Below, piece after piece: positions 1 through 53,762 of a stretch of DNA of 64,000 nt; position 1 is the first letter of the stretch; every line of letters begins with the position of its first letter. The stretch is taken from contig NZ_RKMH01000011.1 in assembly GCF_003797185.1 (NCBI RefSeq), forward strand, positions 1-64,000. Reading direction: 5' to 3'. The notes beneath the pieces were generated by a model that saw nothing but the letters and a program-made list of their open reading frames with translations, was not told the origin of the DNA and searched no databases. Origin of the DNA: Gordonia oryzae (GTDB taxonomy: Bacteria > Actinomycetota > Actinomycetes > Mycobacteriales > Mycobacteriaceae). A program made the position numbers and the translations under genes.

Positions 1-119
1 CCCGACGGACCCAGCAGGGCCGACACCTCGCCCTCCGGCAAAGTCAGCGACACATCACGCCAAATATTCTGCGAACCAAACGATTTGGTGAGGTTGGCGA
101 CGCTCACTTCGACACCCAT
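1..119 (-). CDS. mceG: Mce transporter ATPase MceG/Mkl, N-terminal 39 residues (cut by window edge)
   Basis: The minus-strand reading starts MGVEVSVANLTKSFGSQNIW and reaches the first part of a Walker A motif (LLGPSG) at the edge. This N-terminus closely resembles my memory of M. tuberculosis Mkl/MceG (Rv0655). In that family the protein is the cytoplasmic ATPase that energises YrbE/Mce lipid importers. It lies downstream of the mce genes on the same strand, 27 bp after the Mam gene, so it is probably the last gene of the operon. The C-terminal MceG-specific region is outside the window, so the assignment rests on the N-terminus and on context. Confidence 0.85.
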   Translation of the reverse strand, partial: MGVEVSVANLTKSFGSQNIWRDVSLTLPEGEVSALLGPS

Positions 120-146
120 TGGTGTGTCCTCTCACTGATCCCGCGG

Positions 147-875
147 TTACTTGGGCGCGACCGCGCCGTCCAAACCACCGACATCGGTGATCAGCCAATT
201 CTTCGAGCTGTCCATCGTGACGGTGTAACTCGCTGTGGACTGTACGCCGTGGGGAGCCTGCGCATTCTTCGTCATCACGCTCACGAACGCCGTGACGACG
301 TAGGTGTTGCCGTCATGGGATTTCAGCTGGGCCGCAATGGGCGACGCTGTCGAATTCCACTGCAGCGGAACGATCACCTGCTGCATCGCCGTCGAGGCAT
401 TCGTCAGCTTCGAGGCCAGCTCGGGTGATGTACCCGCAGTGAGACGCTTGTTCCAGGCATCAAGGTCCTGATATCCCATTTGTGCAGCGCCAGTGGCGTA
501 GTCGAGCGCGATCTTCTCGGCGTGTGCGGTGTCTGCCGCCGACGACTGCACGGCATCGAACTGGTTGCTCTTGTCGTGATACAGGTAGGCGAAGATGCCG
601 GTTGCGATTGCCAGCGCCACGACGACCACCGCGACAGCCGACACAACGAGCGCCCGCCGACCCCGCAACACGCGCGTCCCTACCGGGGTCCAACCTTTCG
701 TGCTCCGTTGCGCGGTTGATGTTCCTTCGTTGGTATCCGTCTCGGCAGTGTCGTCGTTGGACTCCTCCGGTGTCGCGGCGGAGGCGTCCTCGGTGGCGGA
801 AGCGGTATCACGCGTATCGTCGGTCAATTCTCGGGTTTCGGGATGCGTATCGGTGTCGATGATCTTGGTGCTCAT
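147..875 (-). CDS. Mce-associated membrane (Mam) protein
   Basis: 242 aa. Residues 1-60 are Asp/Glu/Thr-rich and probably disordered and cytoplasmic. One membrane segment follows at about 75-99, then a roughly 140-residue extracytoplasmic domain ending in a pattern typical of Mam proteins (conserved Tyr/Val-rich beta strands near the C-terminus). Mam proteins are encoded beside mce operons and are thought to stabilise or assist the Mce complex in the envelope. It sits 57 bp after mceF and just ahead of mceG. Only one mam gene is present here, whereas mycobacterial mce operons often carry two or more. Confidence 0.85.
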   Translation of the reverse strand: MSTKIIDTDTHPETRELTDDTRDTASATEDASAATPEESNDDTAETDTNEGTSTAQRSTKGWTPVGTRVLRGRRALVVSAVAVVVVALAIATGIFAYLYHDKSNQFDAVQSSAADTAHAEKIALDYATGAAQMGYQDLDAWNKRLTAGTSPELASKLTNASTAMQQVIVPLQWNSTASPIAAQLKSHDGNTYVVTAFVSVMTKNAQAPHGVQSTASYTVTMDSSKNWLITDVGGLDGAVAPK

Positions 876-7966: not shown

Positions 7967-8857
7967 TCACCCGACCTGACTCGGAAAGAACATGGACTGG
8001 ATCTGGGTGGTCATCAGGTTGGTGATGAACACCGCGACGAACCCCAGGACCACCGAGGCGTTCACACCGTCGGCGACGCCGCGCGGCCCGCCTTTCGCCT
8101 CGAGCCCGCGGAGACTGGCAATGATGACGACCTCCATCCCGAAGAGCATCGTCTTGATGATCGCGAAGAAGAAGTCGGTCTGTGTCGCGAAGGCGCCGAA
8201 CGATTGCCAGAAGCTGCCCGGGATCACCCCGTTGATCGTGATCGCCAGGGAGAAGCCCGCTGCCACAGCCGAGGCGACGATGATGACGCAGAGAATCGGG
8301 GAGATGATGAGAATTGCCAGGAAGCGCGGAAGAACAAGCCGCTGAACCGGATCGACGCCCATCACCCGCATCGCGTCGATCTCTTCCCGAATCGAACGCG
8401 CGCCGAGGTCGGCGGCGATTGCCGAGGCAGCAGCTCCGCCCATCAGGAGTCCGGCGGCGATGGGAGCACCCTGCGAGATCACGCCGATTCCGCTGGCCGC
8501 ACCGGCCAGGGACTTGGCGCCCACCTGGTTCACCACCGCGCCGACCTGGATCGAGATCTCGGTCCCGAACGGCAGCGCGATGAGTACTGCGGGCAGGGCG
8601 GTCACGGTGAGGAGGAACCACGCCTGTTCGAGTGTTTCCACCATCGGGATGCGTGCACGGAACACGCCGGTGATCGCGTACCACACCACTTCGACCGCCA
8701 GCCGAGCCGCGCGGCCGATGGTCGCCAACGACTTGGCCGGTACGGTCTTGACATAGCGGACAATGCTTCTGCCGGCGCGTGCCACCACGTCACCGGCACC
8801 CGTCAGCACCGGTGGCGGGGCCACCGCTTCTGACGCGCCCAAGCTGAGGCCTTGCAT
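7967..8857 (-). CDS. yrbEA: YrbE/MlaE-type permease of the mce operon (first copy)
   Basis: 296 aa from MQGLSLGASE, chosen because GAGG lies just upstream; an in-frame ATG at 8884 gives 305 aa but has no visible Shine-Dalgarno. MlaE-type permease with the coupling block SIREEIDAMRVMGVDPVQRL and several hydrophobic helices. It opens the transport operon. Directly upstream are an 8-3-8 palindrome (8903-8921) and the copied operator/promoter block (8955-8996), so the transporter half of the cluster has its own regulated promoter. Confidence 0.92.
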   Translation of the reverse strand: MQGLSLGASEAVAPPPVLTGAGDVVARAGRSIVRYVKTVPAKSLATIGRAARLAVEVVWYAITGVFRARIPMVETLEQAWFLLTVTALPAVLIALPFGTEISIQVGAVVNQVGAKSLAGAASGIGVISQGAPIAAGLLMGGAAASAIAADLGARSIREEIDAMRVMGVDPVQRLVLPRFLAILIISPILCVIIVASAVAAGFSLAITINGVIPGSFWQSFGAFATQTDFFFAIIKTMLFGMEVVIIASLRGLEAKGGPRGVADGVNASVVLGFVAVFITNLMTTQIQSMFFPSQVG

Positions 8858-8902
8858 CCTCACCTCTTCCCCTGAGCCGGCCATTCGTGGACGTCTGGCC
8901 GG

Positions 8903-8921
8903 TTAATTGACTTTCAATTAA
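8903..8921. promoter_or_regulatory. Perfect inverted repeat TTAATTGA-CTT-TCAATTAA
   Basis: An 8-bp perfect inverted repeat with a 3-bp spacer lies 45-65 bp ahead of the chosen yrbEA start. It is AT-rich in an otherwise GC-rich genome and overlaps the region where a -10 element for the transport operon would be expected. It could be a second regulator site or part of the core promoter. Its function is inferred only from symmetry and position. Confidence 0.55.
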
Positions 8922-8954
8922 ATTTCGTAGATATCAATCCCCTGTGTGTCCCGG

Positions 8955-8996
8955 GTCACATGGGACCTTAGCATAAGTCCACATATGGTCAACCCG
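8955..8996 (-). promoter_or_regulatory. Operator/promoter of the transport operon; near-copy of the 17.5-kb site
   Basis: Positions 8965-8992 match 17525-17552 at 25 of 28 bases, and both blocks are preceded by GTCACAT. The core CATAAGT-CC-ACATATG (8972-8987) is a slightly imperfect version of the perfect palindrome at 17532-17547. Both copies lie upstream of minus-strand operons in the same orientation. This suggests a shared promoter plus a TetR-type operator, most likely for the regulator encoded at 17587. The rest of 8997-9102 shows no further feature. Confidence 0.75.
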
Positions 8997-9102
8997 GTTC
9001 AACGACATCTCTTTCGCGACCATCACTCGGACCCGTTGGCGGACACACCAAGACGGCGGCGCCCACCTGGGGACACCACCGTCTCGGCACTTGCGTGTCT
9101 AC

Positions 9103-10788
9103 CTACTGGCTTGCGACAGAAGCCTTTTCATAACGCGCAGCGAGCGTGTTCTCGCGGAGCGCGGCCGACCGCACGCGGTCACCGAGGCTTCCGTTGTCTT
9201 CGTTACGGAAGTCCTTGAGCATCGTGTGCGCGGCATTCTGGCCGGGCATACCGGAGATTCCCGCCACCGGGTGTGTGCCTGCGCCCGTGAGGTAGAGCCC
9301 CGGAATCGGCGTGCGATACCCCGCGAACTTGTCTGCCGGCTTGAGCGGCCCGAATCGCGAGATCACCGGATCGACGTGATACACACTGCCGTCGATCGCC
9401 CAGAACCTCTCCTCGATGTCGGGGAGCGCGAGATCTCGGCGCGCCACCTCCAGCGATTCGATTCCCTGATAGTAGTGGGACGCATCGTTGATGACGCGTT
9501 CGGTGATCTGCTTCTTCGCCTCATCCCAGCCGATCCGCGGGTCCGTAGGGGTCAGTCCGGTCCAGAACCAGAAGATGTCACAGCCATCCGGGGCGAAGCC
9601 CTTGTCGAAAGCCGTTGTCGCGTGACCGAGCCCGGGAATGTGGTCCGGTACGTCGCCCCGCACGCACGCCTTGGCCGCATCGAGGCTCTCCTGATAGGTG
9701 TTGAATGAGTTGCATCCGAGTCGGAGATCGATCCCGTCACCGCGCCACTTCTCGTGCTTCTCCATCGAGATCGTGCCGCTCAGAGCGACATTGAGCTTGT
9801 AGTCGGCGATACCGCGCCTGCGGGTCGGGATCTTCTCGGCCTTGTTCTTGAGCACCCGGGGCAGCACACCGTCGGGCAGCAACCGGGTCAGCGTCGTCTT
9901 CGGGCTGCACGCGGTGAGGACGGCACGTCGTGCCAGGAGTTCTTCACCACCCCGGAGTCGCACCCCGGTCACCTTTCCGTTGTGCACGAGTAGCTGCTCG
10001 ACCGGCGCGTTGGTGCGGATGCGGCCTCCGTGGGACTTCACGCTCTTGGCCAGTGCCGCCGGGAATGCGCCGGTTCCGCCGTGGAACATCGAGACCCCGT
10101 ACTTGCTGAGCACCCCGAGGTAGATAAGTGACCATCCCGAAAGATCGGCGTCGAACGGCATGAACGGTAGGGCGATGGTCAACGGCGCCCGGATGGCGTC
10201 ACTTTCGAAGCTGTCCTCGATGGCCTCGACCTGCGAGGATGCCATCCACCGGCCGATCGCGGCGAGTTCCTTGCGGTTCTTCGCCATGCCCTTGGCCGCC
10301 TGCAACACCTTCTTGATGTCGGGCGTCACCGGGCTGGTCTGCATCAACGGCAGCCCGATCTCGACGGCCGCGTCGATCACGCGATAGAGGTCGATGAGCG
10401 CCTCAGCGTCCGACGGAGAAAAGTACCGCAACTCGTCGGCGGTACGGCGGGGATCACGCCACAACGCCAATGATGTTCCATCGTAATTGAGTTGGACGTG
10501 CGCGGGATCGATGACGGTCTGCCGCAGGCCGAACTTCGAAGAGAGACCCAGGTCCTTGTCGATGGTCGTCGTACGGAATAGCGACGCCTGCATCGACGCC
10601 TCGTTGATGGTGTATCCCGGAGCCTCCGGCTCGAAGGGGTTGGTCGAGGTCATGCCACCGATCGTCGGTGAGGCCTCCACCACGAGCACGTCGAGTCCCG
10701 CCTGAGCCAGGTATGCCGCGGACACCATGCCGTTGTGCCCGGCGCCGACGACGATGACGTCGGCCGTGTTCTTTACTGCTGTTGTCAC
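9103..10788 (-). CDS. FAD-dependent oxidoreductase, phytoene dehydrogenase/carotenoid oxidoreductase-like
   Basis: 561 aa from a GTG preceded by GAAGGAAGA; an ATG at 10815 gives nine more residues. The N-terminus has a Rossmann FAD motif (DVIVVGAGHNGMVSAAYLA, then E for the ribose). The C-terminus has the second FAD motif typical of this family (PIPGLYLTGAGTHPVAGISG). It belongs to the NAD(P)/FAD oxidoreductase group that includes phytoene desaturases and probably desaturates or oxidises a hydrophobic substrate; the substrate is unknown. It lies 30 bp after the Hsd4B-like SDR gene and before the transport operon, so it probably ends the enzyme operon. Confidence 0.85.
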   Translation of the reverse strand: MTTAVKNTADVIVVGAGHNGMVSAAYLAQAGLDVLVVEASPTIGGMTSTNPFEPEAPGYTINEASMQASLFRTTTIDKDLGLSSKFGLRQTVIDPAHVQLNYDGTSLALWRDPRRTADELRYFSPSDAEALIDLYRVIDAAVEIGLPLMQTSPVTPDIKKVLQAAKGMAKNRKELAAIGRWMASSQVEAIEDSFESDAIRAPLTIALPFMPFDADLSGWSLIYLGVLSKYGVSMFHGGTGAFPAALAKSVKSHGGRIRTNAPVEQLLVHNGKVTGVRLRGGEELLARRAVLTACSPKTTLTRLLPDGVLPRVLKNKAEKIPTRRRGIADYKLNVALSGTISMEKHEKWRGDGIDLRLGCNSFNTYQESLDAAKACVRGDVPDHIPGLGHATTAFDKGFAPDGCDIFWFWTGLTPTDPRIGWDEAKKQITERVINDASHYYQGIESLEVARRDLALPDIEERFWAIDGSVYHVDPVISRFGPLKPADKFAGYRTPIPGLYLTGAGTHPVAGISGMPGQNAAHTMLKDFRNEDNGSLGDRVRSAALRENTLAARYEKASVASQ

Positions 10789-10818
10789 TGATCTTCCTTC
10801 TCGATTGGCGGGCAAACC

Positions 10819-11682
10819 TCACCCGAGCGGATTGGTTCCCGGGACTGCTTCGGTCATGTCCGTAATCTCGTCCCACCTCGCGACGACCTCGTCGACGGTC
10901 GGGGGTTCGTCGAAGGTGACGCCCCTGTTCGCAAAGAGTTCCACTCGTTGAACCAGACCTCCCCCGACGACCAACACCTCTCCCGAGTCGGTGCACGCAT
11001 CTCCGAGCAGGTGCACCACCACCGGTGCGACGTGCGCCGGCGGGAGCTTGTCGAGCACCTCGGCAGGTGCGATGTCGGCCGTCATGCGGGTCGCGGCCAG
11101 CGGTGCCACGGCATTCGCGGTGATGCCAGACTTGGCACCCTCGATCGAGAGGGTGTTGACGAGCCCGAACAGCCCGGCTTTGGCTGCTCCGTAATTGGCC
11201 TGCCCGAAATTCCCGTACAGCCCGCTCGTCGACGTCGCGACCACGATCCGGCCGTGCTTCTGACTCCGGAAGTGCGGCCACGCCGCACTGATCACGTGAA
11301 AGCCGCCGTACAGGTGCACCTTGAGTACCGCGTCCCAGTTCTCCTCCGTCATCTTCGCGAAGCTGCTGTCACGCAGAATGCCGGCGTTGTGGACGAGGCC
11401 GTCGATGCTGCCGAAGGAATCGAGAGCGGTACCGATCAAGGCGAGGCCACCTTCATGGGTGGCGATGTTGTCGTAGTTGGCAACCGCCGTCCCGCCGCGG
11501 GAGCGGATCTCCTCGACCACGGTATCCGCCATCGACGAGCCGGAGCCGGATCCGTCCCGCGCGCCACCGAGGTCGTTCACCACCACGCGAGCACCATGCG
11601 CTGCCGCGGTCAGCGCATATTCCCGGCCCAGGCCGCCGCCGGCCCCGGTAATTGCGACGACGCGCCCATCAAGACTCAGCAT
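10819..11682 (-). CDS. Short-chain dehydrogenase, Hsd4B/peroxisomal multifunctional enzyme-like
   Basis: 287 aa. NAD-binding TGAGGGLGREYA is followed by the typical insertion VVNDLGGARDGSG, which marks the 17beta-HSD4/(3R)-hydroxyacyl-CoA dehydrogenase branch. The catalytic Ser (TSTSG) and YGAAK (Tyr-x3-Lys) are present. In M. tuberculosis an Hsd4B-type SDR and a ferredoxin gene sit directly upstream of yrbE4A. The same SDR-ferredoxin pair occurs here with one flavoprotein gene inserted between it and yrbEA. Likely role: 3-hydroxyacyl-CoA or hydroxysteroid oxidation. The ferredoxin stop is 3 bp upstream. Confidence 0.88.
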   Translation of the reverse strand: MLSLDGRVVAITGAGGGLGREYALTAAAHGARVVVNDLGGARDGSGSGSSMADTVVEEIRSRGGTAVANYDNIATHEGGLALIGTALDSFGSIDGLVHNAGILRDSSFAKMTEENWDAVLKVHLYGGFHVISAAWPHFRSQKHGRIVVATSTSGLYGNFGQANYGAAKAGLFGLVNTLSIEGAKSGITANAVAPLAATRMTADIAPAEVLDKLPPAHVAPVVVHLLGDACTDSGEVLVVGGGLVQRVELFANRGVTFDEPPTVDEVVARWDEITDMTEAVPGTNPLG

Positions 11683-11685
11683 CTC

Positions 11686-11880
11686 TCAGTCCTTGTCAAT
11701 CCGGAGGGCTTCGGTGGGGCAGCCGGCCACGGCTTCGTCGACTGCCTGTAGCTCGTCATCGGAGATCTCCTCCTTGAGTATCAACAGCGTTCCGTCATCA
11801 CCGATTTCGAAGAATTCGGGTGCCAAAGACTCACAGATTCCTAGGCCCGTGCACTTGGTTCTGTCGAGATGTACTTTCAT
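11686..11880 (-). CDS. [3Fe-4S] ferredoxin
   Basis: 64 aa. Cys10-x5-Cys16 (CTGLGIC) and Cys54 followed by Pro is the three-cysteine pattern of actinobacterial P450-partner ferredoxins, where the second Cys of the 4Fe motif is missing. It carries electrons to a cytochrome P450 in the cytoplasm, and the P450 gene of this operon (14149-15408) is the obvious partner. It corresponds in position to M. tuberculosis FdxD beside mce4. No ferredoxin reductase gene lies in the cluster. Confidence 0.93.
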   Translation of the reverse strand: MKVHLDRTKCTGLGICESLAPEFFEIGDDGTLLILKEEISDDELQAVDEAVAGCPTEALRIDKD

Positions 11881-11936
11881 TGATTCCTCCTTGGACGCAG
11901 GCTGAGTGGACGGCGTCTGAGCGGCCGGCGCTGGGT

Positions 11937-13334
11937 TCAGAACAGCTTGCGCATGAGCTTGAGGTCACGCGCCGAGTAGGGCGGATAGACCAGGCGCGGA
12001 TCGGGTTTGGCCGACTTCGAGAGCACCGCCTTGCGGTGGCTCAGTCGCTCGAATCCCCAACTGCCGTGATAGTCACCGATTCCCGAGGCACCGACCCCAC
12101 CGAACGGCAACGCTGGCACCAGACAGTGCATGGCGATGTGATTGATGACCGCACCGCCGGAGGAGATCGACTCCGTCAGTTGTGACGCAGTCCGCTTCGA
12201 CGACGTGAACGCGTACATCGCCAACGGTTTGGGCCTGGCGTTCACGAATTCAATTGCGGCATCCACGGAGTCGACGGTCAGAACGGGCAGGATCGGTCCG
12301 AAAATCTCGTCGGTCATCAGTGGTTCTTGCGGATCGGGATCGACGACCACCGTGGGTTGGAGTCGGCGTCGGGATTCGTCAGCGGCACCGCCGAGGATCC
12401 GACCGCTGGTCTGCGAGAGATAGCCAGCCAGACGCGCATACTGTCGCTCGTTGACGATAGGCAAAGTGTCATCCGATGCGTCCGAGCGGAATTCTGCGAT
12501 CGTTGCGGTGATCTTCGCGATCAGTTGCTCGGCGATCGACCGATGCGCAAGAACGTAGTCCGGTGCGATACAGGTCTGCCCGGAGTTGAGCAGTTTCACC
12601 CATGCGATGCGTCGTGCCGCGACGTCCAGATCGGCGTCCTCGGCCACGATCACCGGACTCTTCCCTCCGAGTTCGAGGGTTACCGGTGTCAATGTGGGCG
12701 CTGCCGCGGCCATGATCTTCTTGCCGATATCGGTACCACCGGTGAAGACGGCGTGGTCGAAGCCGAGTAAGAGCAGATCCTGGGTGACCTCGGCGTCACC
12801 CTCGATGACACTCACCGCGGACGAGTCGAGATACTGGGGAACCAGCGCAGTCAGCAAAGCCGATGTCGCCGGAGCCAGCTCCGACGGCTTCAGCACCGCG
12901 CAGTTGCCTGCCGCGACTGCCGCGATCAAGGGACCTAGGGTGAGATACACCGGGTAGTTCCACGGGCCGATCACCAGAACGACGCCTAGTGGTTCGTACT
13001 GCACCCATCCGCGCCCCGGCAACTGGTTGAGCGGCAAGCGCACTCGCCGCTTCCTCATCCACTTCTTGAGGTGCTTGCGTGCGTAGGACGCCTCTCCGGC
13101 CGTGGAGGCGATGTCGCCGAGCCATGCCTCCTCGGCGCTGCGTCCGAGGTCGGCGGCCAGCGCTGCGGCGATGTCGGACTCACGTTCGGCGAGCAACCGC
13201 TCGATGCTTTCGAGCTGCCGGATACGCCAAGCATAAGGACGGGTGGTGCCGGACGCGAACGTCGAACGCAAGGCGTCGACCTGTTCGACAACCGGGGATG
13301 CGGTGGACTGTCGGGCGGTGAGAGGAGTGGCCAT
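11937..13334 (-). CDS. Aldehyde dehydrogenase (class 3/fatty aldehyde type)
   Basis: 465 aa from MATPLTARQS. The ALDH fold is complete: GPWNYP (Asn126), the cofactor loop FTGGTDIGKKI, general base Glu221 (ELGGKSP) and nucleophile Cys255 (NSGQTC). Lengths near 460 and a basic, hydrophobic C-terminus (YSARDLKLMRKLF) fit the membrane-associated class 3/fatty aldehyde group. It probably oxidises the aldehyde produced from a P450- or SDR-derived alcohol to the acid that the ligase then activates. Gap of 8 bp to the upstream SDR gene. Confidence 0.92.
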   Translation of the reverse strand: MATPLTARQSTASPVVEQVDALRSTFASGTTRPYAWRIRQLESIERLLAERESDIAAALAADLGRSAEEAWLGDIASTAGEASYARKHLKKWMRKRRVRLPLNQLPGRGWVQYEPLGVVLVIGPWNYPVYLTLGPLIAAVAAGNCAVLKPSELAPATSALLTALVPQYLDSSAVSVIEGDAEVTQDLLLLGFDHAVFTGGTDIGKKIMAAAAPTLTPVTLELGGKSPVIVAEDADLDVAARRIAWVKLLNSGQTCIAPDYVLAHRSIAEQLIAKITATIAEFRSDASDDTLPIVNERQYARLAGYLSQTSGRILGGAADESRRRLQPTVVVDPDPQEPLMTDEIFGPILPVLTVDSVDAAIEFVNARPKPLAMYAFTSSKRTASQLTESISSGGAVINHIAMHCLVPALPFGGVGASGIGDYHGSWGFERLSHRKAVLSKSAKPDPRLVYPPYSARDLKLMRKLF

Positions 13335-13342
13335 GTCGCGTC

Positions 13343-14134
13343 TCAGATCTCGGGCGCCGGAACCACGCCGGAGAGCACGGCACCTGTCACACCGCCGTCG
13401 ACGGCGATCGCCTGTCCGTTGATCCATCGGGCATCGTCTGACGCCAGGAACACCAGTACGTCGGCGATGTCACCCGGTTCTGCGTGTCGTCCCAACAGGT
13501 TTCGCAAGCCGTCGAGGGTGTCCTTGCCCATCGACTCCTCGAAGTCGACGAGGATCGGTGTCTCCACGGGGCCGGGAAGCACGGCATTGATGCGGAATCC
13601 CATCTCCGCGAAGGCCAATCCCATCGACATGGTGTAGACGGTCGTGACCTCCTTCGAGAAGTTGTAGGTGTTGCCCTGCTGGGGGTGTTCCTTGAACCAG
13701 GCGACGCCGTCCTCGAAGGTGTCGGTGGCCAGCAGATCTCGGATCTGCTCGAGACGATCGGCCCAGCCGAAGCCGGCGGTGGAGCTCACGATGGTCACCG
13801 ATCCACCGGGGTTGAGGCGTTCGAAGAAGGCCTCACTCAGGTGGCGAACAGCGAGCGAGTTCACGGCGAGAACCAGATCCGACGGGGCGGTTCCCGGGAT
13901 ACCGGCGATGTTCAACAGACCGTCGAAGGAGCCGTCCAGCTTTTCCAGAGCGGCATCGATGCTGTTGGGATTGGCGAGATCCACCTCGGTGTGGCTGGTG
14001 ACCGCGACCGCCGGGGTGTTGCGATCGAGACTGTGCACTTCGGCGCCGGCACCCAGAAGTCGCTCGGCGGTGGCGGCACCGATTCCGGATGCCGCTCCGG
14101 TGACCACGATTCGTTTGTTGGAGAGATCGGTCAT
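13343..14134 (-). CDS. Short-chain dehydrogenase, 3alpha-hydroxysteroid dehydrogenase-like
   Basis: 263 aa. TGAASGIG at residues 12-19, LNIAG, catalytic Ser in VSSTAGF, and YNFSKE (Tyr-x3-Lys). The short N-terminal half with a small Asp-rich beta strand and the extended segment before the Tyr resemble bacterial 3alpha-HSD/carbonyl reductases. It likely interconverts a cyclic or isoprenoid alcohol and ketone, or oxidises the P450 product. It lies 14 bp after the P450 gene. Confidence 0.9.
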   Translation of the reverse strand: MTDLSNKRIVVTGAASGIGAATAERLLGAGAEVHSLDRNTPAVAVTSHTEVDLANPNSIDAALEKLDGSFDGLLNIAGIPGTAPSDLVLAVNSLAVRHLSEAFFERLNPGGSVTIVSSTAGFGWADRLEQIRDLLATDTFEDGVAWFKEHPQQGNTYNFSKEVTTVYTMSMGLAFAEMGFRINAVLPGPVETPILVDFEESMGKDTLDGLRNLLGRHAEPGDIADVLVFLASDDARWINGQAIAVDGGVTGAVLSGVVPAPEI

Positions 14135-14148
14135 GAGAGGAACTCCTG

Positions 14149-15408
14149 TCAGAGGGTGTAGGGCATGGACTTGACCGCGCGGACGAAGTTGCCGGTGAGG
14201 TACTCCGGCTCGCCGACGCGCAAGGTGGGCGCACGGTGCAGCAGTTGATCGAAGAGCTCGGTCAACTGCATCTTCGCGACGAAGCTGCCCATGCAGAAAT
14301 GTGGTCCTCCGCCACCGAACCCGACGTGCGGGTTGGGCCAGCGCGTGATGTCGAACCGGTTTGGGTTCTCGAATACCGCTTCGTCACGGTTGCCGGAGGA
14401 GTACACCATCGCCACCCACTCGCCCGCCTTGATCTCCTGACCGCCGAGCACCGTGTCTTCAGTGGCCGTGCGACGGAAGGTCATCACCGGCGAAGCCCAC
14501 CGCACGAACTCCTCGACCGCCGGCTTGATGCGTCCTGCGAAATCGTCGAGCAAGTACGTACGTTGATCGGGGAAGTCCTGGAAGGCCTTGGTGGTGAGGC
14601 TGATCGTGTTGCGTGTGGTGTCGTTGCCTGCCACCGACAACAGCACGAAGAACGAGGCGATCTCCTCGTCGGTGAGTGCTTCGCCGTCGACCTCGGCCTG
14701 CACGAGCCCGGTCATGAGGTCGGCCTTCGGATGCGTGCGGCGCTCTTCGGCGAATTCGAACCCCATCGACAGCAGCCCGACCAGGGATTCGTTGAGAACC
14801 TCTCCCGGTTCCCGTCCGGCGGCGACGTCCTCGTCGGCCCACGACACCATGCCATCGGCATGATGAGCGGCCTCTTCACGCTTGTCGAGGTCTTCCAGAC
14901 CCATCATTTCGTAGATGGTCCACATGGGTAGACGCTTGGACACGACGTCGACGAAGTCGCCCTCGCCCTTCTCGATCAACTGGTCCACGATGATTCGCGA
15001 CTGGTTCTTGATCTGCTCGTGAATCTTCTTGACCTGTTTGGGCGTGAACGCCGAGCTGACCAGCTTGCGCAGAGCCGCATGCCGCGGGTCGTCCATACCC
15101 AGGAACGAACCCGCAGCCGACAGCACGTCGTCGGGTATCTCCTCGAACTGGAAACCCTGTCCAGAACAATACAATTCCGGATGCTTGCTCACCTCGGAGA
15201 TGAGTTCGTGGGAAGTAACCACCCAGACGCCGTCGTTCTCCGGGGGCATGATGGCCCCCTCGAGCGGTGCATGCCAACTGATCGGGCGCTGCGCCCGCAA
15301 GAGGGCGAACGTCTTCTCTCGTTCCTCGGCGGTCTGCGCCCAGAAGTCGAGACCCGAGATACTCAGTTCGTCATAGGGCCGAGCCGGGCTGTGCAGAGTA
15401 CTGGTCAT
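14149..15408 (-). CDS. Cytochrome P450, CYP124/125/142-like
   Basis: 419 aa from MTSTLHSPAR, 1 bp after the ligase stop. I-helix AGNDTTRN, K-helix E-x-x-R (EEFVRWASP), meander, and heme loop FGGGGPHFCMG with the axial Cys. The opening segment (SISGLDFWAQTAEEREKTFA) and the I-helix resemble the mycobacterial CYP124 and CYP125 group, which omega-hydroxylate methyl-branched lipids and sterol side chains. With the ferredoxin, ligase and SCP2 gene this points to terminal oxidation of a branched chain. The exact substrate cannot be read from sequence. Confidence 0.93.
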   Translation of the reverse strand: MTSTLHSPARPYDELSISGLDFWAQTAEEREKTFALLRAQRPISWHAPLEGAIMPPENDGVWVVTSHELISEVSKHPELYCSGQGFQFEEIPDDVLSAAGSFLGMDDPRHAALRKLVSSAFTPKQVKKIHEQIKNQSRIIVDQLIEKGEGDFVDVVSKRLPMWTIYEMMGLEDLDKREEAAHHADGMVSWADEDVAAGREPGEVLNESLVGLLSMGFEFAEERRTHPKADLMTGLVQAEVDGEALTDEEIASFFVLLSVAGNDTTRNTISLTTKAFQDFPDQRTYLLDDFAGRIKPAVEEFVRWASPVMTFRRTATEDTVLGGQEIKAGEWVAMVYSSGNRDEAVFENPNRFDITRWPNPHVGFGGGGPHFCMGSFVAKMQLTELFDQLLHRAPTLRVGEPEYLTGNFVRAVKSMPYTL

Positions 15409-15409
15409 G

Positions 15410-16954
15410 TCACGCACCACTTTCCACGAGGTAGTTCTTTTCGATATCCCGCTTGATCAATTTTCCGGTGGCGGTTCGCGGCAGCTCGTCGACGAAATCG
15501 ACCGATCGGGGAGCCTTGAAATGTGCGATCCGTTCTCGCGTGTACTCGATGATCTCGGCGGCGAGATCGTCGGAAGGAACTTCACCGTCGCGCAGTGCGA
15601 CCACCGCCTTGACCTGTTGGCCCATCTCGGCGTCGGGCACACCGATCACTGCGACGTCGAAGACCTTCGGGTGCAGGGTCAGGACATTCTCGATCTCCTG
15701 CGGGTAGATGTTCACGCCGCCGGAGATGATCATGAACGCCTTGCGATCGGTCAGGAACAGATATCCGTCCTCGTCGACATATCCGAGATCGCCGACGGTG
15801 GTCCAGTTCTCGTGTTCCGGATGCTGCGCATCTCTGGTCTTCTCGGGATCATTGTGATACGTGAACGGCCGCGTCTCCCGTTCGAAATACACCTGGCCGA
15901 CTTCTCCGGTCGCCAGCTCGTTGCCGCCGTCGTCGCAGATGTGCACCGGGCCGAGCGCCGACTTGCCCACCGAACCCCGCTTGGTCAGCCACTCCTGAGT
16001 GGTGATGATCGTGGTGCCGTGTTGCTCTGTGGCGCTGTAGTACTCGACCAGGATGGGACCCCACCAGTCGATCATCGACTGCTTCACCTCGGGCGGACAC
16101 GGTGCAGCGGCGTGGACGGCGACCCGCATACTCGAGATGTCATAGGCATCACGCGTTCTCGCCGGTAGTTGTAGCATCCGAACGAACATCGTCGGCACCA
16201 TCTGGGTGATGGTGATCCGGTACTTCTCGATGGCCGCCAACGCCTTTTCCGCATCGAACTTCTCCATCACCACCACGGTTCCACCCAGCGCATGCACCGC
16301 TCCGCACCACTTCAGGGGGGCAGCGTGATACATCGGGGCCGGCGAGAGGTACACGTCGGCGTCGGTGACCTTGAAGACGTGTTGAACGAGGCCGGTGATC
16401 GGGTCGCCGGGTTGGTCAACCTGGATGGGAAGCAAGGTGGGCTTGATCCCCTTGGGTCGGCCGGTCGTTCCGGACGAATACAGCATCTCCGAGCCTCTGG
16501 GCTGATCGACCAACGGGTTCACGTCGGCGACGAGCAGGTCGTCGTACCGTCCGAAACCGTCGATCTGCCCACCGAAGGCGAACGTCGCCAGATCTGTCTC
16601 GCCGACCTCGGCCACAGCCTTGGTCGCCAGTTCACCCAGCCTCGCCGATGCGAACAGCACTTTCGCACCACTGTCGCTGATGATGTAGGCAACCTCGCCG
16701 GGTGCAAGGTGCCGATTCACCGCGGTGATATAGAGCCCTGACCTGATCGCTGCCCAGTAAAGCTCCAGTACCTCGGCGGTGTTCTCCGAGAGCACGGCGA
16801 TGACGTCGCCCTTGGCAAGTCCATTGTCGCGCAGTGCTGCCGCGAGTGCCGCCGACCGTTGTTCCAGCTCGCCGTAGGTGACGGTGTGTCCACTACCCGC
16901 CATGATGATCGCCGGCTTGTCGGGATTCACCGCAGCATGAGTGCCGGGATACAT
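15410..16954 (-). CDS. Acyl-CoA synthetase (FadD-like, AMP-forming)
   Basis: 514 aa. AMP-binding P-loop YSSGTTGRPKGI, the YYSATEQHG adenine motif, GDLGYVDEDGYLFLTDR with GGVNIYPQEIE, and the C-terminal PRTATGKLIKRD carrying the catalytic Lys. It activates a carboxylic acid (probably the product of the P450/SDR/ALDH steps) to its CoA thioester. It lies 60 bp after the SCP2 gene and directly before the P450 gene. Confidence 0.93.
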   Translation of the reverse strand: MYPGTHAAVNPDKPAIIMAGSGHTVTYGELEQRSAALAAALRDNGLAKGDVIAVLSENTAEVLELYWAAIRSGLYITAVNRHLAPGEVAYIISDSGAKVLFASARLGELATKAVAEVGETDLATFAFGGQIDGFGRYDDLLVADVNPLVDQPRGSEMLYSSGTTGRPKGIKPTLLPIQVDQPGDPITGLVQHVFKVTDADVYLSPAPMYHAAPLKWCGAVHALGGTVVVMEKFDAEKALAAIEKYRITITQMVPTMFVRMLQLPARTRDAYDISSMRVAVHAAAPCPPEVKQSMIDWWGPILVEYYSATEQHGTTIITTQEWLTKRGSVGKSALGPVHICDDGGNELATGEVGQVYFERETRPFTYHNDPEKTRDAQHPEHENWTTVGDLGYVDEDGYLFLTDRKAFMIISGGVNIYPQEIENVLTLHPKVFDVAVIGVPDAEMGQQVKAVVALRDGEVPSDDLAAEIIEYTRERIAHFKAPRSVDFVDELPRTATGKLIKRDIEKNYLVESGA

Positions 16955-17014
16955 TCAGATTCCTCCTTGTTGCAACTCGACCGTTTCGCCACCGATGACC
17001 TCGGGTGGGCGCTC

Positions 17015-17419
17015 TCAGACCAGAAGGTCTTTGCGGCCGTCGGTCGTGAGGTTGTCGATGTAGACCGGAAACAGCTTCTTGCCGAGCGGAGCCAGCTTGA
17101 GCAGACTCGCGACGTTGCCACTGACCGAGATCTTCTTCTTGGCCATGGCCAGCGGGAGATTCACCTTGCCCTGCCAGTAGGCGTTCCCCGTGTCAGCAGG
17201 CATCGCCATGGTGGCGTGTGGCTCAGGGCTTCCTTCGAAACCGTCATAGACCTTCTTGTTCACCGCGTCGACGACGACCACCGCCTCAGGTGCGGTGAAG
17301 TCGAAGGCGAAGACCAGCCCGCTGTCGACGAGCTTTGGCCCAATCTCCGCATCGTCGAATGCCGTCTCGAAGATCCCGCCGATGTACTTCCTGACCTCTG
17401 CCGCGTCTGCGAACGCCAT
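17015..17419 (-). CDS. SCP2 sterol-binding domain protein
   Basis: 134 aa from MAFADAAEVR, with AGGAGG 8 nt upstream. A single SCP2 domain: the NKKVYDGF-to-ATMAMPADTGNAYWQGK stretch and the Lys-rich segment SLLKLAPLGKKLFPVYIDNL are typical. SCP2 domains bind sterols or fatty acyl-CoAs in a hydrophobic tunnel, so this is probably a carrier or presenter for the enzymes encoded downstream. It is the first gene of the enzyme operon and lies just downstream of the 17.5-kb operator. Confidence 0.88.
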   Translation of the reverse strand: MAFADAAEVRKYIGGIFETAFDDAEIGPKLVDSGLVFAFDFTAPEAVVVVDAVNKKVYDGFEGSPEPHATMAMPADTGNAYWQGKVNLPLAMAKKKISVSGNVASLLKLAPLGKKLFPVYIDNLTTDGRKDLLV

Positions 17420-17515
17420 GACTCTGTCCTCCTGATTAAAATATAACTTTGATTCAAAACAGTCCACAGACGGTCCCTGTGCTGCGAAAATCGTCAGGAC
17501 TTGACTATGAGCTGA

Positions 17516-17556
17516 GTCACATAGACCTTAGCATAAGTTCACTTATGGACAAGCCC
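17516..17556 (-). promoter_or_regulatory. Divergent operator with perfect palindrome CATAAGT-TC-ACTTATG
   Basis: The perfect 7-2-7 inverted repeat spans 17532-17547 between the divergent SCP2 operon and the TetR gene. It lies within a block that recurs ahead of yrbEA (25 of 28 bases at 17525-17552). An AT-rich stretch at 17430-17458, including TTTGATTCAAA, probably holds the -10 region for the SCP2 side. It fits a TetR-family operator serving both directions and autoregulation. Confidence 0.8.
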
Positions 17557-17586
17557 CGATCTCGGCCGGACACACGAGGAGCCACG

Positions 17587-18141
17587 GTGTCGACACATCA
17601 CTCCCCCGACGCGTACTACGAAACTGGACTCGCGATCCTCTCCGACCGGGGCTTCGGCGGCCTGAAGCTCGCAGAAGTATGCCGGAGATCCGGCGTCACC
17701 TCCGGGTCGTTCTACCACCACTTTCCGAAGTGGTCGGCCTATACAACCGGCCTCATCGAGTATTGGCGGGAGGAGCGGACGGTGCGGTTGATCGCCAGCT
17801 TGGACAGCGAACCCGATCCGTGGGCGCGGCTGCGACACATCATCGAGATCGGGGTCTCACTTCCCCATGGCGCCGAGGCCGCCATTCGCACGTGGAGTCA
17901 CCTCGATACCGCCGTCCGCGGAGTACAGGCAGACGTGGACCGACAACGGTTTGACGCGGTGGCATCCGCGGTCGCCGAGATCACCGGCGATCGCGACGCC
18001 GGTGATCTGTTCGCACACTGGGCCGTCTATCTGCTCGTAGGCTTCGAGCAGATAGACCTCGGATCCGACACCACGGCGCTGGAGCAGGCAATTAATCGGC
18101 TTGCTGGAGAGATTGAATCACTGATTCCGGCCGCCGAGTAG
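17587..18141 (+). CDS. TetR-family regulator of the P450/mce locus
   Basis: 184 aa from a GTG with GAGGAG 5 nt upstream. The ATG at 17545 lies inside the operator palindrome and lacks a ribosome site, so I prefer the GTG. The N-terminal HTH (LAEVCRRSGVTSGSFYHHFPKW) is typical of TetR. A paralogous protein is encoded at 23709; both share the pattern DGFG-LKLA-VC, then GSFYH-F, then YWREE. It is divergent from the SCP2 operon. I infer that it controls the enzyme operon, itself and, through the repeated site, the transporter operon. Confidence 0.9.
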   Translation: MSTHHSPDAYYETGLAILSDRGFGGLKLAEVCRRSGVTSGSFYHHFPKWSAYTTGLIEYWREERTVRLIASLDSEPDPWARLRHIIEIGVSLPHGAEAAIRTWSHLDTAVRGVQADVDRQRFDAVASAVAEITGDRDAGDLFAHWAVYLLVGFEQIDLGSDTTALEQAINRLAGEIESLIPAAE

Positions 18142-23708: not shown

Positions 23709-24326
23709 ATGGCTCGCGAGAGGAGATCGACGCCGTCGCGATATGCGCGCGTGCGGTTCCTCGAGGCGGGTCTCACCGTCCTGGCCGAGGACGGATTCGG
23801 CGCGCTCAAACTCGCAGCGGTCTGCGCCCGCGCCGACGCCACCACCGGTAGCTTCTATCACGCCTTCGACAACTGGGCCGAGTTCACCTCGGCGCTGATC
23901 GCCTATTGGCGCGAGGAGAAGAGCCAGCGGCCGATCGCGCAAGCGCGCAAGGTCACCGATCCTGCCGAACGTCTTACGGCACTGATGGACGTCGGGCTGA
24001 CCCTGCCCCACGATTCCGAACGGGCCATCCGTGTCTGGGCCGCCCAGGATCCGGAGGTCCGCAAGCATCAGGAGGAAGTCGACCTCGAACGGCGCGACTT
24101 CATCGCCGAGACCTACCGTGAGGCCCTCGGCGACGACTTTGCCGCCGAGGAGTACGCCACCATTTCGATGTATCTGCTCGTCGGATACGAAAGCGGGACA
24201 CTGCGCTCCTACGAGGCCCTCGATCTGGGATTTCGAATGTTCCTCCAGAGCGCGATCGGCCCGATCGGCAAGCCCGGCAAGCTCGGCGACGTTGTCGCGA
24301 GCCCGCCCACGGCCCCTGACCACTGA
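23709..24326 (+). CDS. TetR-family regulator, paralogue of the 17587 regulator
   Basis: 205 aa. HTH region LAAVCARADATTGSFYHAF. Beyond the HTH it shares YWREE, the L-PHDSE/GAE-AIR segment and the YLLVGYE/F pattern with the 17587 TetR. It is divergent from the thiolase-ACAD operon and 116 bp upstream of the MpaB-type gene. A palindrome resembling the 17.5-kb operator lies in that gap. It probably controls one or both neighbours. Confidence 0.9.
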   Translation: MARERRSTPSRYARVRFLEAGLTVLAEDGFGALKLAAVCARADATTGSFYHAFDNWAEFTSALIAYWREEKSQRPIAQARKVTDPAERLTALMDVGLTLPHDSERAIRVWAAQDPEVRKHQEEVDLERRDFIAETYREALGDDFAAEEYATISMYLLVGYESGTLRSYEALDLGFRMFLQSAIGPIGKPGKLGDVVASPPTAPDH

Positions 24327-24397
24327 CGCCTGTCCGTCCGGTCGAATAGCCCAGACTGCGCCACACCTCAATGCGAGTGTGACTCCTTGCACAAAAG

Positions 24398-24413
24398 TAT
24401 AAGTCGCCTTATA
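24398..24413. promoter_or_regulatory. Palindrome TATAAG-TCGC-CTTATA ahead of the MpaB-type oxygenase gene
   Basis: A perfect 6-4-6 inverted repeat, 30 bp ahead of the start at 24443. It has the same total length (16 bp) and nearly the same arms (ATAAGT/CTTAT) as the palindrome at 17532-17547. Because the two nearby TetR proteins are paralogues, this is probably the operator of the 23709 regulator. Confidence 0.65.
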
Positions 24414-24442: not shown

Positions 24443-25330
24443 ATGCTCAGGATCGACCGCAACCAGGGCCTCGACCCCGACGCCGACTTCGGCGAGATCT
24501 ACCGCAACATCGTGACCTACGAGTTTCCCTGGGACATGAACCAGGCACTGAGCTTTGCCCTCTTCCGCACCTACGCCGTGCCGAGCATCGGCCGGCTGCT
24601 CGACGAAACCGGCGAATTCACCACCCGTGTGCAGAAGCGCTACGACGACACCGGACTGCTTTTGGAAGTCCCCCTCGTAGAAGGGATCTCCAGCCCGGAA
24701 GGTAAAGCGGCCATCCGTCGCATCAATCAGATGCACAGGATGTACGACATCAGCAATGACGACATGCGCTACGTCCTGGCGACATTCGTCGTCGTCCCCA
24801 AGCGCTGGCTTGACGATTACGGCTGGCGGCGGATGACCTATGAGGAAGTGCGCGCGTCGGTGCTCTACTACAGATCACTCGGGAAGCACATGGGGATCAC
24901 CGGCATCCCGGAAACCTACGAGGATTTCGCGCGATTGCTCGACGACTACGAGGCAGCCCACTTCGCCTTCGATCCCGGCGCTCGTCGAGTCGCGGACTCG
25001 ACCATGCAGCTGATGACAACGTTCTACCCCAAGCCGGCGGCCCCCCTGATCGACCTCTTCAGCCGATCGGTGATGGACGACCCACTGTTGCAGGCGTTCC
25101 ACTACCGCAAGCCGAACAGATTGGCGCGCACCCTCTCCGCGGCCGGTCTGCGGATGCGAGCCCGTGTCGTTGCGCTGCTGCCCTCGCGGCGCAAGCCCCG
25201 CCTGGTACAGGACACGCCCCGGATCCGCAGCTATCCCAACGGCTTCGAGGTCGAGAAACTCGGAACCTTCACTCCCGGGTGTCCGGTCCATCGAACAGCC
25301 GACATCGCCGAGTCGGTGTCGACGGGCTGA
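24443..25330 (+). CDS. Oxygenase MpaB family protein (DUF2236, related to latex-clearing protein)
   Basis: 295 aa with GAGGAGG 8 nt upstream. It carries the family's conserved blocks: ADFGEIYRNIVTYEFPWDM, the ALFRTYAVPSIGRLLDETGE to KRYDDT region, NQMHRMYDISNDDMRYVLAT and the HFAFDPGARRVADST segment. MpaB and the rubber oxygenase Lcp are heme-b enzymes that cleave isoprenoid chains; invariant Arg/Lys and His residues are visible, but I cannot assign heme ligands with certainty. An isoprenoid-cleaving role would suit the neighbouring beta-oxidation genes. The C-terminus ends in a basic, non-conserved tail. Confidence 0.85.
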   Translation: MLRIDRNQGLDPDADFGEIYRNIVTYEFPWDMNQALSFALFRTYAVPSIGRLLDETGEFTTRVQKRYDDTGLLLEVPLVEGISSPEGKAAIRRINQMHRMYDISNDDMRYVLATFVVVPKRWLDDYGWRRMTYEEVRASVLYYRSLGKHMGITGIPETYEDFARLLDDYEAAHFAFDPGARRVADSTMQLMTTFYPKPAAPLIDLFSRSVMDDPLLQAFHYRKPNRLARTLSAAGLRMRARVVALLPSRRKPRLVQDTPRIRSYPNGFEVEKLGTFTPGCPVHRTADIAESVSTG

Positions 25331-42013: not shown

Positions 42014-42757
42014 TTATTGTGCACCGGTAGGAGCGTCCTGCGGGCCGCTCTCCTGCGCTGCGGGCGCCGGATCGGTAACGATCACCATCGCGGTGCGGAT
42101 CACCTTTTCGCCCAGGCGGTAACCGCTGCGGTACACCGCGCCGAGGACCGGCTCGGCACCACTGCCGTCGTTCTGGACGGCCTCGTGCAGTTCCGGGTCG
42201 AACACGTCGCCGGGTTCACCGAACTTGACGACACCCTCGCCGGTCAACGTGGCGGCAAGCTTATCGGCGACCGCACGCAGCGGACCGGACTCGAGATCGC
42301 CGTGCTCGCGGGCACGGTCGAGGTCGTCGAGGACCGGCAGCAGCTTCTCGATGAGAACCTGCTTGCCGTAGGCCACCCGGCCCTGCTTCTCCTCCTCGGT
42401 ACGCCGCTTGTAGTTGGCGAACTGTGCGCGTTCTCGCTGCAGTGCCGCCGTGAGGTCGGCGACCTCGTCGGAGTGCGGGGTGCTCGGCTCGGGATCGGGG
42501 ATGGCCGCGGCGGGCTCGGCCTCAGCCAGACCCGGCCCGGCGGCCGAATCCTCGCGCACCTCACCCGTTTCCGGGTCGATGCGACGACGATCGGTCACCG
42601 TCACCGGCTCCTCGGAACCAGCTCCGCTCCCGGCGCCCGGAGCATTTGGCCCGCTCGCTCCGCTCCCGGCGCCCGCGACATTTGGCCCGCTCGCTCCGCT
42701 CCCGGCGCCCGCGACATTTGGCCCGCTCGCTCCGCTCCCGGCGCCCGGAGCGGTCAC
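42014..42757 (-). CDS. grpE: Nucleotide exchange factor GrpE with repeat-bearing N-terminus
   Basis: 247 aa, overlapping dnaK by 4 bp (ATGA). The GrpE core is the long coiled coil ([20 protein letters not shown]) and the beta domain ([40 protein letters not shown]). The first 40 residues are unusual: three tandem copies of a 12-residue unit AGSGASGPN(V/A)(A/P)G. They come from a 36-bp DNA repeat that recurs once in lon. GrpE drives ADP release from DnaK. The repeat-bearing tail is probably disordered. Confidence 0.95.
42643..42745 (-). repeat. Three tandem copies (36-bp period) of a dispersed 31-bp element inside grpE
   Basis: Copies begin at 42643, 42679 and 42715, and a partial copy lies at about 42621-42640. 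Each starts CATTTGGCCCGCTCGCTCCG on the plus strand and encodes [10 protein letters not shown] on the minus strand. A single copy with two base differences lies at 53507-53537 in lon, in the same coding frame and orientation. This is what an in-frame mobile palindromic element followed by local duplication would leave. Confidence 0.85.
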
Positions 42758-44604: not shown

Positions 44605-45012
44605 CTTTGCTAATCCTCCTGGTTTCTGGGTGTGCACCCAAGTCCTGCTCCCCCGCAGCGGGCTTGGCGCCCACCACGAGAGTGTGGTGTGTGGCAAACC
44701 TGCGCTAGGGGTCAGACTTCAGTGCCTTGGACTCATGTCTTACCGGGTTGAGCCGGTCCAGGTCAACTTAAGTTGAGCCAGCATCGCTCAGGTTTCTCGA
44801 TCGGTCCAACGGGTGGGGTGCCACAGATGTTCCCGATTCGACCAAAAAAGTTGAGCGAAGTTCGCTCAGTTTTGGCGCACGTGACCGCAGATCACACGTT
44901 TCGTTCGTGAGATCCGCTCACGACCAGGCGTGATTGGGCCGATAATCCCCTCGGGGGTCGCGCTGCGTGGGTCCACCAAAAAGGTGGCCGCCGAGTTCGA
45001 GGAGTAGAGATC
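44605..45012. promoter_or_regulatory. Control region ahead of dnaK with two HAIR-like HspR sites
   Basis: TTGAGC-CAGCATC-GCTCAG (44773-44791) and TTGAGC-GAAGTTC-GCTCAG (44851-44869) both have the 7-bp spacing of the HspR inverted repeat (consensus CTTGAGT-N7-ACTCAAG). A perfect palindrome CAACTTAAGTTG (44764-44775) overlaps the first. The distance to dnaK (170-265 bp) suggests a long leader. At 44973-44987 CCACC-AAAAA-GGTGG forms a small hairpin ahead of the 45013 gene. Confidence 0.85.

Positions 45013-51386: not shown

Positions 51387-53762
<2,376 letters not shown>

Follow-up and report, generated by a model that had tools for sequence, protein, structure and literature searches.

The palindrome CATAAGT-NN-ACTTATG is found in two promoters of Gordonia oryzae, one leading an operon with a cytochrome P450 gene and the other a yrbE-mce-mceG operon for a Mce importer. 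Both lie within positions 1 to 64,000 of contig NZ_RKMH01000011.1 (assembly GCF_003797185.1), the 64,000-nucleotide stretch that is called the window here. The gene at 17587, which encodes a TetR-family regulator, adjoins the P450-side palindrome. Comparison with related genomes suggests, with a probability of about three in four, that the 17587 TetR represses both promoters through this palindrome, thereby co-inducing the importer and the oxidation enzymes. The elements concerned are as follows.

8965-8992, minus strand: mce promoter, read from the sequence as -35-like TTGACC (8992-8987), a 16-nt spacer, and -10-like TAAGGT (8970-8965)
8972-8987, unstranded: predicted TetR operator of the mce operon, CATAAGTCCACATATG, 6/7 pairs, second-best position weight matrix (PWM) score on the window
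8945-8960, minus strand: Crp/GlxR-like box of the mce promoter, TGTGACCCGGGACACA, 1 mismatch to TGTGA-N6-TCACA
17525-17552, minus strand: putative promoter of the SCP2-P450 operon, TTGTCC (17552-17547), a 16-nt spacer, and TAAGGT (17530-17525)
17532-17547, unstranded: predicted TetR operator of the SCP2-P450 operon, CATAAGTTCACTTATG, 7/7 pairs, with the tetR start 40 bp away
17506-17521, minus strand: Crp/GlxR-like box of the SCP2-P450 promoter, TGTGACTCAGCTCATA, 1 mismatch to TGTGA-N6-TCACA
17587-18141, plus strand: TetR-family regulator of 184 amino acids, divergent from the SCP2-P450 operon

The two promoter blocks, 8965-8992 and 17525-17552, are identical at 25 of 28 bases. Among all 28-mers of the window on both strands, the best other match of either block is its partner, and the next-best matches have 18/28 (mce block) and 17/28 (P450 block) identical bases. 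The 18/28 match, at 24391, overlaps a third, related site, which is described below. When the 28-mers of the window are compared all against all, 130 register-wise pairs have at least 25/28 identical bases. A short repeat at 42.6 kb, with matches at 53.5 kb, accounts for 127 of them; two more are the mce/P450 block pair, and the last is 44515/49513 on opposite strands. In the whole genome (4,519,536 bases, 30 contigs), CATAAGT-NN-ACTTATG with up to two mismatches exists at these two promoters only, and on this ground chance likeness and a block present in many copies are both rejected. Another 12 sites have exactly three mismatches. Since a reversed control pattern gives 25 sites at three mismatches or fewer, compared with 14 for the palindrome, this class is mostly background. 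A PWM derived from SCP2-side sites in 14 other genomes plus a Mycobacterium avium site (G193, a near-duplicate of G231, and G026 were left out, and no window or mce site was included) gives its three highest scores on the window to 17532 (27.9), 8972 (21.9), and 24398 (16.4); the fourth has 11.9.

An earlier reading of the window from its letters alone (the sequence-only reading) had claimed that the two blocks agree by more than chance, that the core at 17532-17547 is a perfect 7-2-7 palindrome, that both blocks face minus-strand operons, and that a TetR gene adjoins one of them. All of this is borne out. The tetR GTG start codon (17587) is 40 bp after the perfect palindrome, and one pair is broken in the copy at 8972-8987. 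The genome scan that had been proposed as a check found no scatter of sites over unrelated loci.

The edges of the blocks are exactly the -35-like and -10-like hexamers (TTGNCC-16-TAAGGT), and the palindrome occupies the spacer. What had been taken as a 28-base operator block is indeed shared, but it appears to be an operator together with a core promoter. The actinobacterial -10 element is TANNNT. Among 22 aligned promoters, all chosen for having a site, TTG is found at the upstream edge of the palindrome in 14 and TANNNT just after the palindrome in 17. TTGNNN and TANNNT occur jointly at 16-18 nt spacing in 11 of the 22, compared with 0.03 expected with shuffled flanks. It is on this comparison across promoters that the reading of the blocks as putative promoters rests. 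As the palindrome fills the spacer, a repressor bound at the predicted operator would stand in the way of RNA polymerase.

Another shared element is the Crp/GlxR-like box. GTCACAT is found at 8955-8961 and 17516-17522, ahead of the block by 3 and 2 nt, respectively. Its complement on the operon strand, TGTGAC, corresponds to the left half of TGTGA-N6-TCACA, which is the consensus of Crp/GlxR sites. The unequal spacing fits two separate elements. Thus GTCACAT does precede both blocks, as the sequence-only reading said, but it seems to be part of a separate element. A box with up to two mismatches lies within 60 nt downstream of the palindrome in 17 of 21 promoters, compared with one of 21 in the 60 nt upstream. 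The four without a downstream box are the G024 SCP2, G028 SCP2, and G020 P450 promoters and one of the two mce-side sites of G072. In the G028 SCP2 promoter a 1-mismatch box is on the upstream side, overlapping the edge of the palindrome. A Crp-type helix-turn-helix (HTH) protein is encoded in the genome (C9:63593, E 8.6e-18).

Relatives were searched among 59 genomes of the genus and an even draw of 301 genomes of the family; the sets overlap and both include the host. All 17 relatives whose P450 reaches about 57% identity were taken (19 P450 loci, five genus labels), eight of them sharing one genus label (g18). In 16 of the 17, a unit led by SCP2 or P450 has a site with up to three mismatches in its promoter, and in 15 the site has two mismatches or fewer. 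The 16 include G026, in which a 1-mismatch site precedes the SCP2-ligase genes on a contig other than that of the P450 (L157). G028 carries an exact site at its main SCP2-ligase-P450 copy and a 3-mismatch site at the SCP2-ligase unit next to a second P450; a third P450, adjoining an mce operon, has none. These three P450 paralogues and the mce operon (L048-L050) lie within about 40 kb and offer a natural comparison for gain and loss of the regulon. Another example is found on M. avium plasmid pP7a (NZ_CP076857.1, L128), where an exact site and a similar box stand before SCP2. Its cluster encodes SCP2, ligase, P450, an alcohol dehydrogenase of the short-chain dehydrogenase/reductase (SDR) type, aldehyde dehydrogenase (ALDH), ferredoxin, and a flavin adenine dinucleotide (FAD) oxidoreductase. 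The pP7a cluster stands behind an ATP-binding cassette (ABC) ATPase gene, and the plasmid is typed as mobilizable.

At the mce operon, 42 yrbEA loci were examined, a set without the weaker yrbEA matches. A site within 1.5 kb upstream of yrbEA is found in three of them (G000, G021, and G072), all P450-linked. The other 39 have no site in the 1.5 kb upstream (at L092, L097, and L100 contig ends leave less DNA than this), and an operator common to all mce operons is rejected for this reason. In the sister species G021, a 1-mismatch site stands before yrbEA and another site before SCP2; both promoters retain the palindrome and hexamers amid different surrounding bases. G072, which has another genus label, carries in order TetR, two sites, an ABC ATPase (mceG-like), yrbEA, yrbEB, and mceA-F, and then a site with SCP2-ligase-P450. 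In G020 a 3-mismatch site leads a same-strand series of SCP2, ligase, SDR, FAD, and finally mce genes, and the P450 has its own site with two mismatches. In G026 yrbEA is 4.8 kb downstream of the 1-mismatch site with SCP2-ligase. No site exists within 1.5 kb upstream of yrbEA in G028, G039, and G049 (75% identical each). The mce sites occur only with a linked P450 pathway, and linkage does not always bring a site. The mce operators of G000, G021, and G072 have 1, 1, and 2 mismatches, compared with 0, 1, and 1 at SCP2; in G072 a 1-mismatch site also lies nearer tetR.

The 17587 TetR has a TetR_N domain (PF00440, 32.4 bits compared with a cut-off of 24, scanned as the longer open reading frame (ORF) 17449-18141). 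Its AlphaFold2 model, with a mean predicted local distance difference test score (pLDDT) of 92.4, has nine helices and, as in the TetR fold, is all helical with a C-terminal ligand-binding domain. The best PDB folds are TetR-type regulators, and these matches are generic (best rows at a template modelling score of about 0.75 and 16-17% identity) and do not indicate a ligand. When the sequences of solved structures in the PDB were searched, Mce3R matched best, its similarity being confined to the HTH region (E 2.4e-6, residues 15-80).

The same site stands in both promoters and is kept in relatives, and therefore uptake and breakdown are most likely induced together. In the mechanism proposed here, the 17587 protein would bind CATAAGT-NN-ACTTATG at the two promoters as a repressor dimer. 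Because the palindrome fills the space between the -35 and -10 hexamers, bound TetR would keep RNA polymerase off both the P450 operon and the yrbE-mce-mceG operon, and it would probably repress its own gene as well. An inducer, most likely an imported hydrophobic acid, its coenzyme A (CoA) ester, or an oxidised intermediate, would release the TetR. The importer would then be produced jointly with the CYP268-like P450, ferredoxin, SDRs, ALDH, CoA ligase, and SCP2-like carrier. The Crp/GlxR-like box over the start region may add carbon-status control.

Another TetR of this kind and another site are found in the window.

23709-24323, plus strand: paralogous TetR of the same subfamily, 45% identical to the 17587 TetR
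24398-24413, unstranded: related site TATAAGTCGCCTTATA, between the 23709 TetR and an MPAB/Lcp-like oxygenase gene (24443-25330), third-best PWM score

The 23709 TetR is about 6 kb from the 17587 TetR, and a TGTGACTCCTTGCACA box together with TATAAGTCGCCTTATA lies between it and the MPAB gene. This arrangement of box and site recurs at related MPAB promoters. Within the genus, 28 of the 59 genomes have the site at one mismatch or fewer (31 sites, compared with 4 for a control pattern). In the family draw the exact site is found in 12/301 genomes and the control in none. Among 31 newly fetched site loci, which do not include one listed site (G029:C7), 21 are at an MPAB gene (20 with a subfamily TetR alongside), four at SCP2, and one at yrbEA. 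The remaining five (L136, L139, L144, L153, and L162) have no TetR, MPAB, SCP2, or yrbE match alongside; L162 is next to an acyl-CoA dehydrogenase homologue. At position 1501 of L136, L144, and L153 (G001, G013, and G017), CATAAGTGGACTTATG or GATAAGTGGACTTATG is found; the three flanks are alike and the genes tested for are absent nearby. Of 29 TetR-homologue loci, 15 have a site with up to three mismatches near the gene and eight with up to one, compared with means of 0.38 and 0.0 for shuffled palindromes. These counts suggest that a wider TetR subfamily, encoded for the most part next to MPAB/Lcp-like oxygenase genes, has the palindrome as its operator code, with the P450-mce regulon as one branch. 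The outer bases of the MPAB site are shifted (TATAAG in the host, TGTAAG in G028 and G052), and this shift may keep the paralogues apart. For a third subfamily paralogue of the genome, C10:61180, the surrounding 20 kb contain no site. The one locus of a named relative of the 17587 TetR, from Mycolicibacterium parafortuitum, has no site. The sequence-only reading had placed the P450 and mce operons under one TetR; the shared operator agrees with this, but the code is not private to that regulator, a second such TetR being present in the window.

A fuller account may be offered tentatively, its chances falling a little short of even. In mycolic-acid actinobacteria, an undescribed TetR subfamily that first served MPAB/Lcp-like oxygenases would share CATAAGT-NN-ACTTATG as its operator code. 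Duplication would have recruited the subfamily to a CYP268-type pathway and to a dedicated Mce importer with mceG in its operon, placing both under one switch within the core promoter, next to a Crp/GlxR box. The weaker mce operators would switch import on at a lower inducer level than oxidation, and the shift of the outer bases at the MPAB site would insulate the paralogues.

Several observations weigh against repression of both operons by the 17587 TetR. The presence of a second subfamily TetR with a related site 6 kb away means that the assignment of regulator to site is not unique, and cross-talk is possible. No site is found near the gene at 14 of the 29 TetR-homologue loci, so the code does not extend to the whole subfamily. 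The TetR beside the P450 cluster in G028, G024, and G296 is just 37-41% identical to the 17587 TetR (best match). The SCP2-P450 cluster of G309, the one exception among the 17 relatives, has no site, and none is near the P450 on plasmids of Pseudonocardia and Rhodococcus opacus. The mce operon of G028 adjoins P450 genes, yet no site exists upstream of its yrbEA. As for the promoters, 11 of the 22 aligned ones do not have the joint hexamers, and a strict sigma-70 scan calls no promoter at either block.

Three other explanations have to be considered. The 17587 and 23709 TetRs may recognise overlapping operators, so that the P450-mce operons and the MPAB gene form a cross-wired network under shared custody. 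This is rather unlikely, even though several points favor it. The two proteins are 45% identical, and the recognition-helix regions of related members are similar. Next to 23709-type TetRs at MPAB genes, the operator-like site is CATAAGT-NN-ACTTATG, with exact copies in several relatives, and 24398 ranks third on the window with a matrix made from P450-side sites. Against this, the shifted outer bases of the MPAB site in the host clade, including G028 and G052, look like insulation, and the gene adjoining the P450 operator is 17587, not 23709. Less probable still is that Crp/GlxR is the chief co-regulator of both operons and the TetR merely tunes them, a view compatible with repression of both operons by the 17587 TetR. 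The box is present in 17/21 promoters, and all 12 MPAB promoters printed have TGTGAYNNNTTGCACA on the upstream side of the site, the 11 from relatives having been selected because they carry a site. However, in the 17 the box stands anywhere from 3 to 19 nt from the palindrome, its right half is degenerate, and at MPAB loci a box with up to two mismatches is found within 60 nt in just 10 of 21. In addition, the G024 SCP2 promoter has no box and that of G028 is upstream, at the palindrome edge.

The least probable explanation, and a very unlikely one, is that the likeness of the blocks reflects a recently copied promoter or a mere conserved core promoter, and that the TetR has no role at the mce operon. 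Part of the 25/28 matches are indeed the -35 and -10 hexamers themselves. Against this, G021 keeps the palindrome and hexamers at both promoters in different flanks, G072 keeps both sites in a different gene order, and 39/42 yrbEA loci have no site. Repression of both operons by the 17587 TetR remains the preferred reading.

The working principle has precedents. In the KstR regulon with mce4, a TetR repressor of cholesterol uptake and catabolism couples a Mce importer to P450/CoA catabolism, and the predicted system here is alike in this linkage. KstR operators are TAGAAC-type and differ from CATAAGT-NN-ACTTATG, in agreement with the earlier claim that the site here is unlike them. Close kinship of the 17587 TetR with KstR or KstR2 was not found. 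KstR2 is reached at E of about 0.008 only, in the HTH region, and KstR is not among the PDB sequence matches listed and appears only as a generic fold match to the model. The P450 here is CYP268-like, and CYP125 and CYP142 are more distant from it. Another similar system is Mce3R-mce3 of M. tuberculosis, in which a TetR-family repressor controls an mce operon and lipid-metabolism genes. In PMC11667970, Mce3R is described as a 406-aa double TetR acting on two 25-bp asymmetric sites, none of them palindromic. The 17587 protein, with 184 aa, one TetR_N domain, and a perfect 7-2-7 palindrome, is not a regulator of the type described there. LcpR of the rubber oxygenase lcp genes is similar in that TetR proteins stand beside oxygenase genes, and Lcp and the MPAB gene here belong, by family name, to a common Pfam family (PF09995). 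The palindromes of LcpR-VH2 and LcpRBA3(2), as given in PMC7413915, do not resemble CATAAGT-NN-ACTTATG. The Mce3R and LcpR operators are thus rejected as a match for the palindrome, to the extent that these two sources present them (PMC11667970, PMC7413915). Among the titles and abstract openings listed from the open-licence literature, none describes a CATAAGT-NN-ACTTATG operator or its regulon. In a survey of mycobacterial TetR regulators, the main text, as distinct from the supplements that hold the motif table, has no CATAA, CTTAT, or TTATG (PMC4482099). With KstR-mce4 and Mce3R-mce3 acting alike, the principle would be a known one, and the operator and regulon were not met in the literature searched.

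The genes of the two operons are listed below.

17015-17416, minus strand: SCP2-like lipid carrier, first gene of the operon, PF02036 E 3.6e-5 (scanned as ORF 17015-17467)
15410-16954, minus strand: acyl-CoA ligase, FadD4-like, below the cut-off of the FadD4 model
14149-15420, minus strand: cytochrome P450, 216/416 aligned positions identical to CYP268A2
13343-14134, minus strand: SDR, coniferyl-alcohol-dehydrogenase-like, NF009092, 291 bits compared with a cut-off of 242
11937-13427, minus strand: ALDH, true start probably inside the ORF
11686-11880, minus strand: ferredoxin of 64 amino acids, by translation
10819-11682, minus strand: SDR, by profile match
9103-10815, minus strand: FAD-dependent oxidoreductase, CrtO-like, final gene ahead of the mce promoter
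7967-8884, minus strand: yrbEA permease, PF02405
7094-7960, minus strand: yrbEB permease, PF02405
933-7087, minus strand: mceA-mceF, six MlaD/MCE proteins by Pfam, mceA below the Pfam cut-off and a TIGR00996 match below its cut-off
147-875, minus strand: Mce-associated protein-like ORF, judged from its location, where G021 too has a similar ORF, no Pfam match
1-122, minus strand: N-terminus of mceG, cut by the contig start, by translation

The P450 operon thus runs on the minus strand from the SCP2-like gene through the FadD4-like ligase, P450, SDR, ALDH, ferredoxin, and second SDR to the CrtO-like FAD oxidoreductase. The SCP2-like protein has no NCBIfam match and no PDB sequence match. A small ORF homologous to the ferredoxin exists in some relatives, and a ferredoxin is annotated at the equivalent place in the M. 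avium cluster. The mce operon has the layout of MCE importers, two MlaE permeases followed by six MCE proteins, with mceA below the Pfam cut-off as listed. The importer had been called complete with mceG; this holds for the yrbE-mce genes, but of mceG only the N-terminal stub is present before the contig start. The stub alone has no Pfam match; in G021 a full-length ABC ATPase at the equivalent place begins with a nearly identical sequence, and in G072 an ABC ATPase gene heads the mce operon.

P450s with more than 40% identity are placed in one family, and with 216/416 positions identical to CYP268A2 the P450 here falls in CYP268. CYP268A2 (PDB 6bld), which we take to be from M. marinum, is the closest solved P450 (52% identity), and its substrates are presumably branched isoprenoid-like lipids. 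Because of this kinship, our best guess for the substrate, with about one chance in three of being right, is a branched or isoprenoid-type hydrophobic acid. The CYP268-like P450, ligase, SCP2-like, and mce genes make the earlier suggestion of another hydrophobic substrate a reasonable one. To our knowledge, the substrates of most Mce importers are not known. A regulon joining one mce operon to a defined oxidation pathway by an operator that is rare and predictable would narrow the substrate to those acceptable to a CYP268-type P450 and a FadD-type ligase, and with one purified repressor and two short DNA fragments the inducer could be sought directly. The code further marks out a larger group of TetR-MPAB pairs that are uncharacterised.

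The leaders of both operons have AT-rich stretches directly upstream of their ribosome-binding sites, 8903-8921 and 17434-17459.

8903-8921, unstranded: AT-rich inverted repeat of the mce leader, TTAATTGA-CTT-TCAATTAA

The stretch in the SCP2 leader is GATTAAAATATAACTTTGATTC. Similar AATC/GATT-rich stretches are found in the leaders of G020, G021, G072, G296, and M. avium, and not in the printed leaders of genus g18. The AT-rich stretch is possibly a third shared element. The SCP2 leader also has a terminator-like stem-loop with a T-rich tail at 17465-17481 on the minus strand (1 found compared with 0.1 expected), which could be an attenuator.

The short repeat at 42.6 kb is a 36-bp tandem repeat of 3.5 copies (window 42621-42747) within the minus-strand ORF 42014-42757, and similar 28-mers are found near 53506. 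This ORF comes after the HSP70-family ORF 42754-44697.

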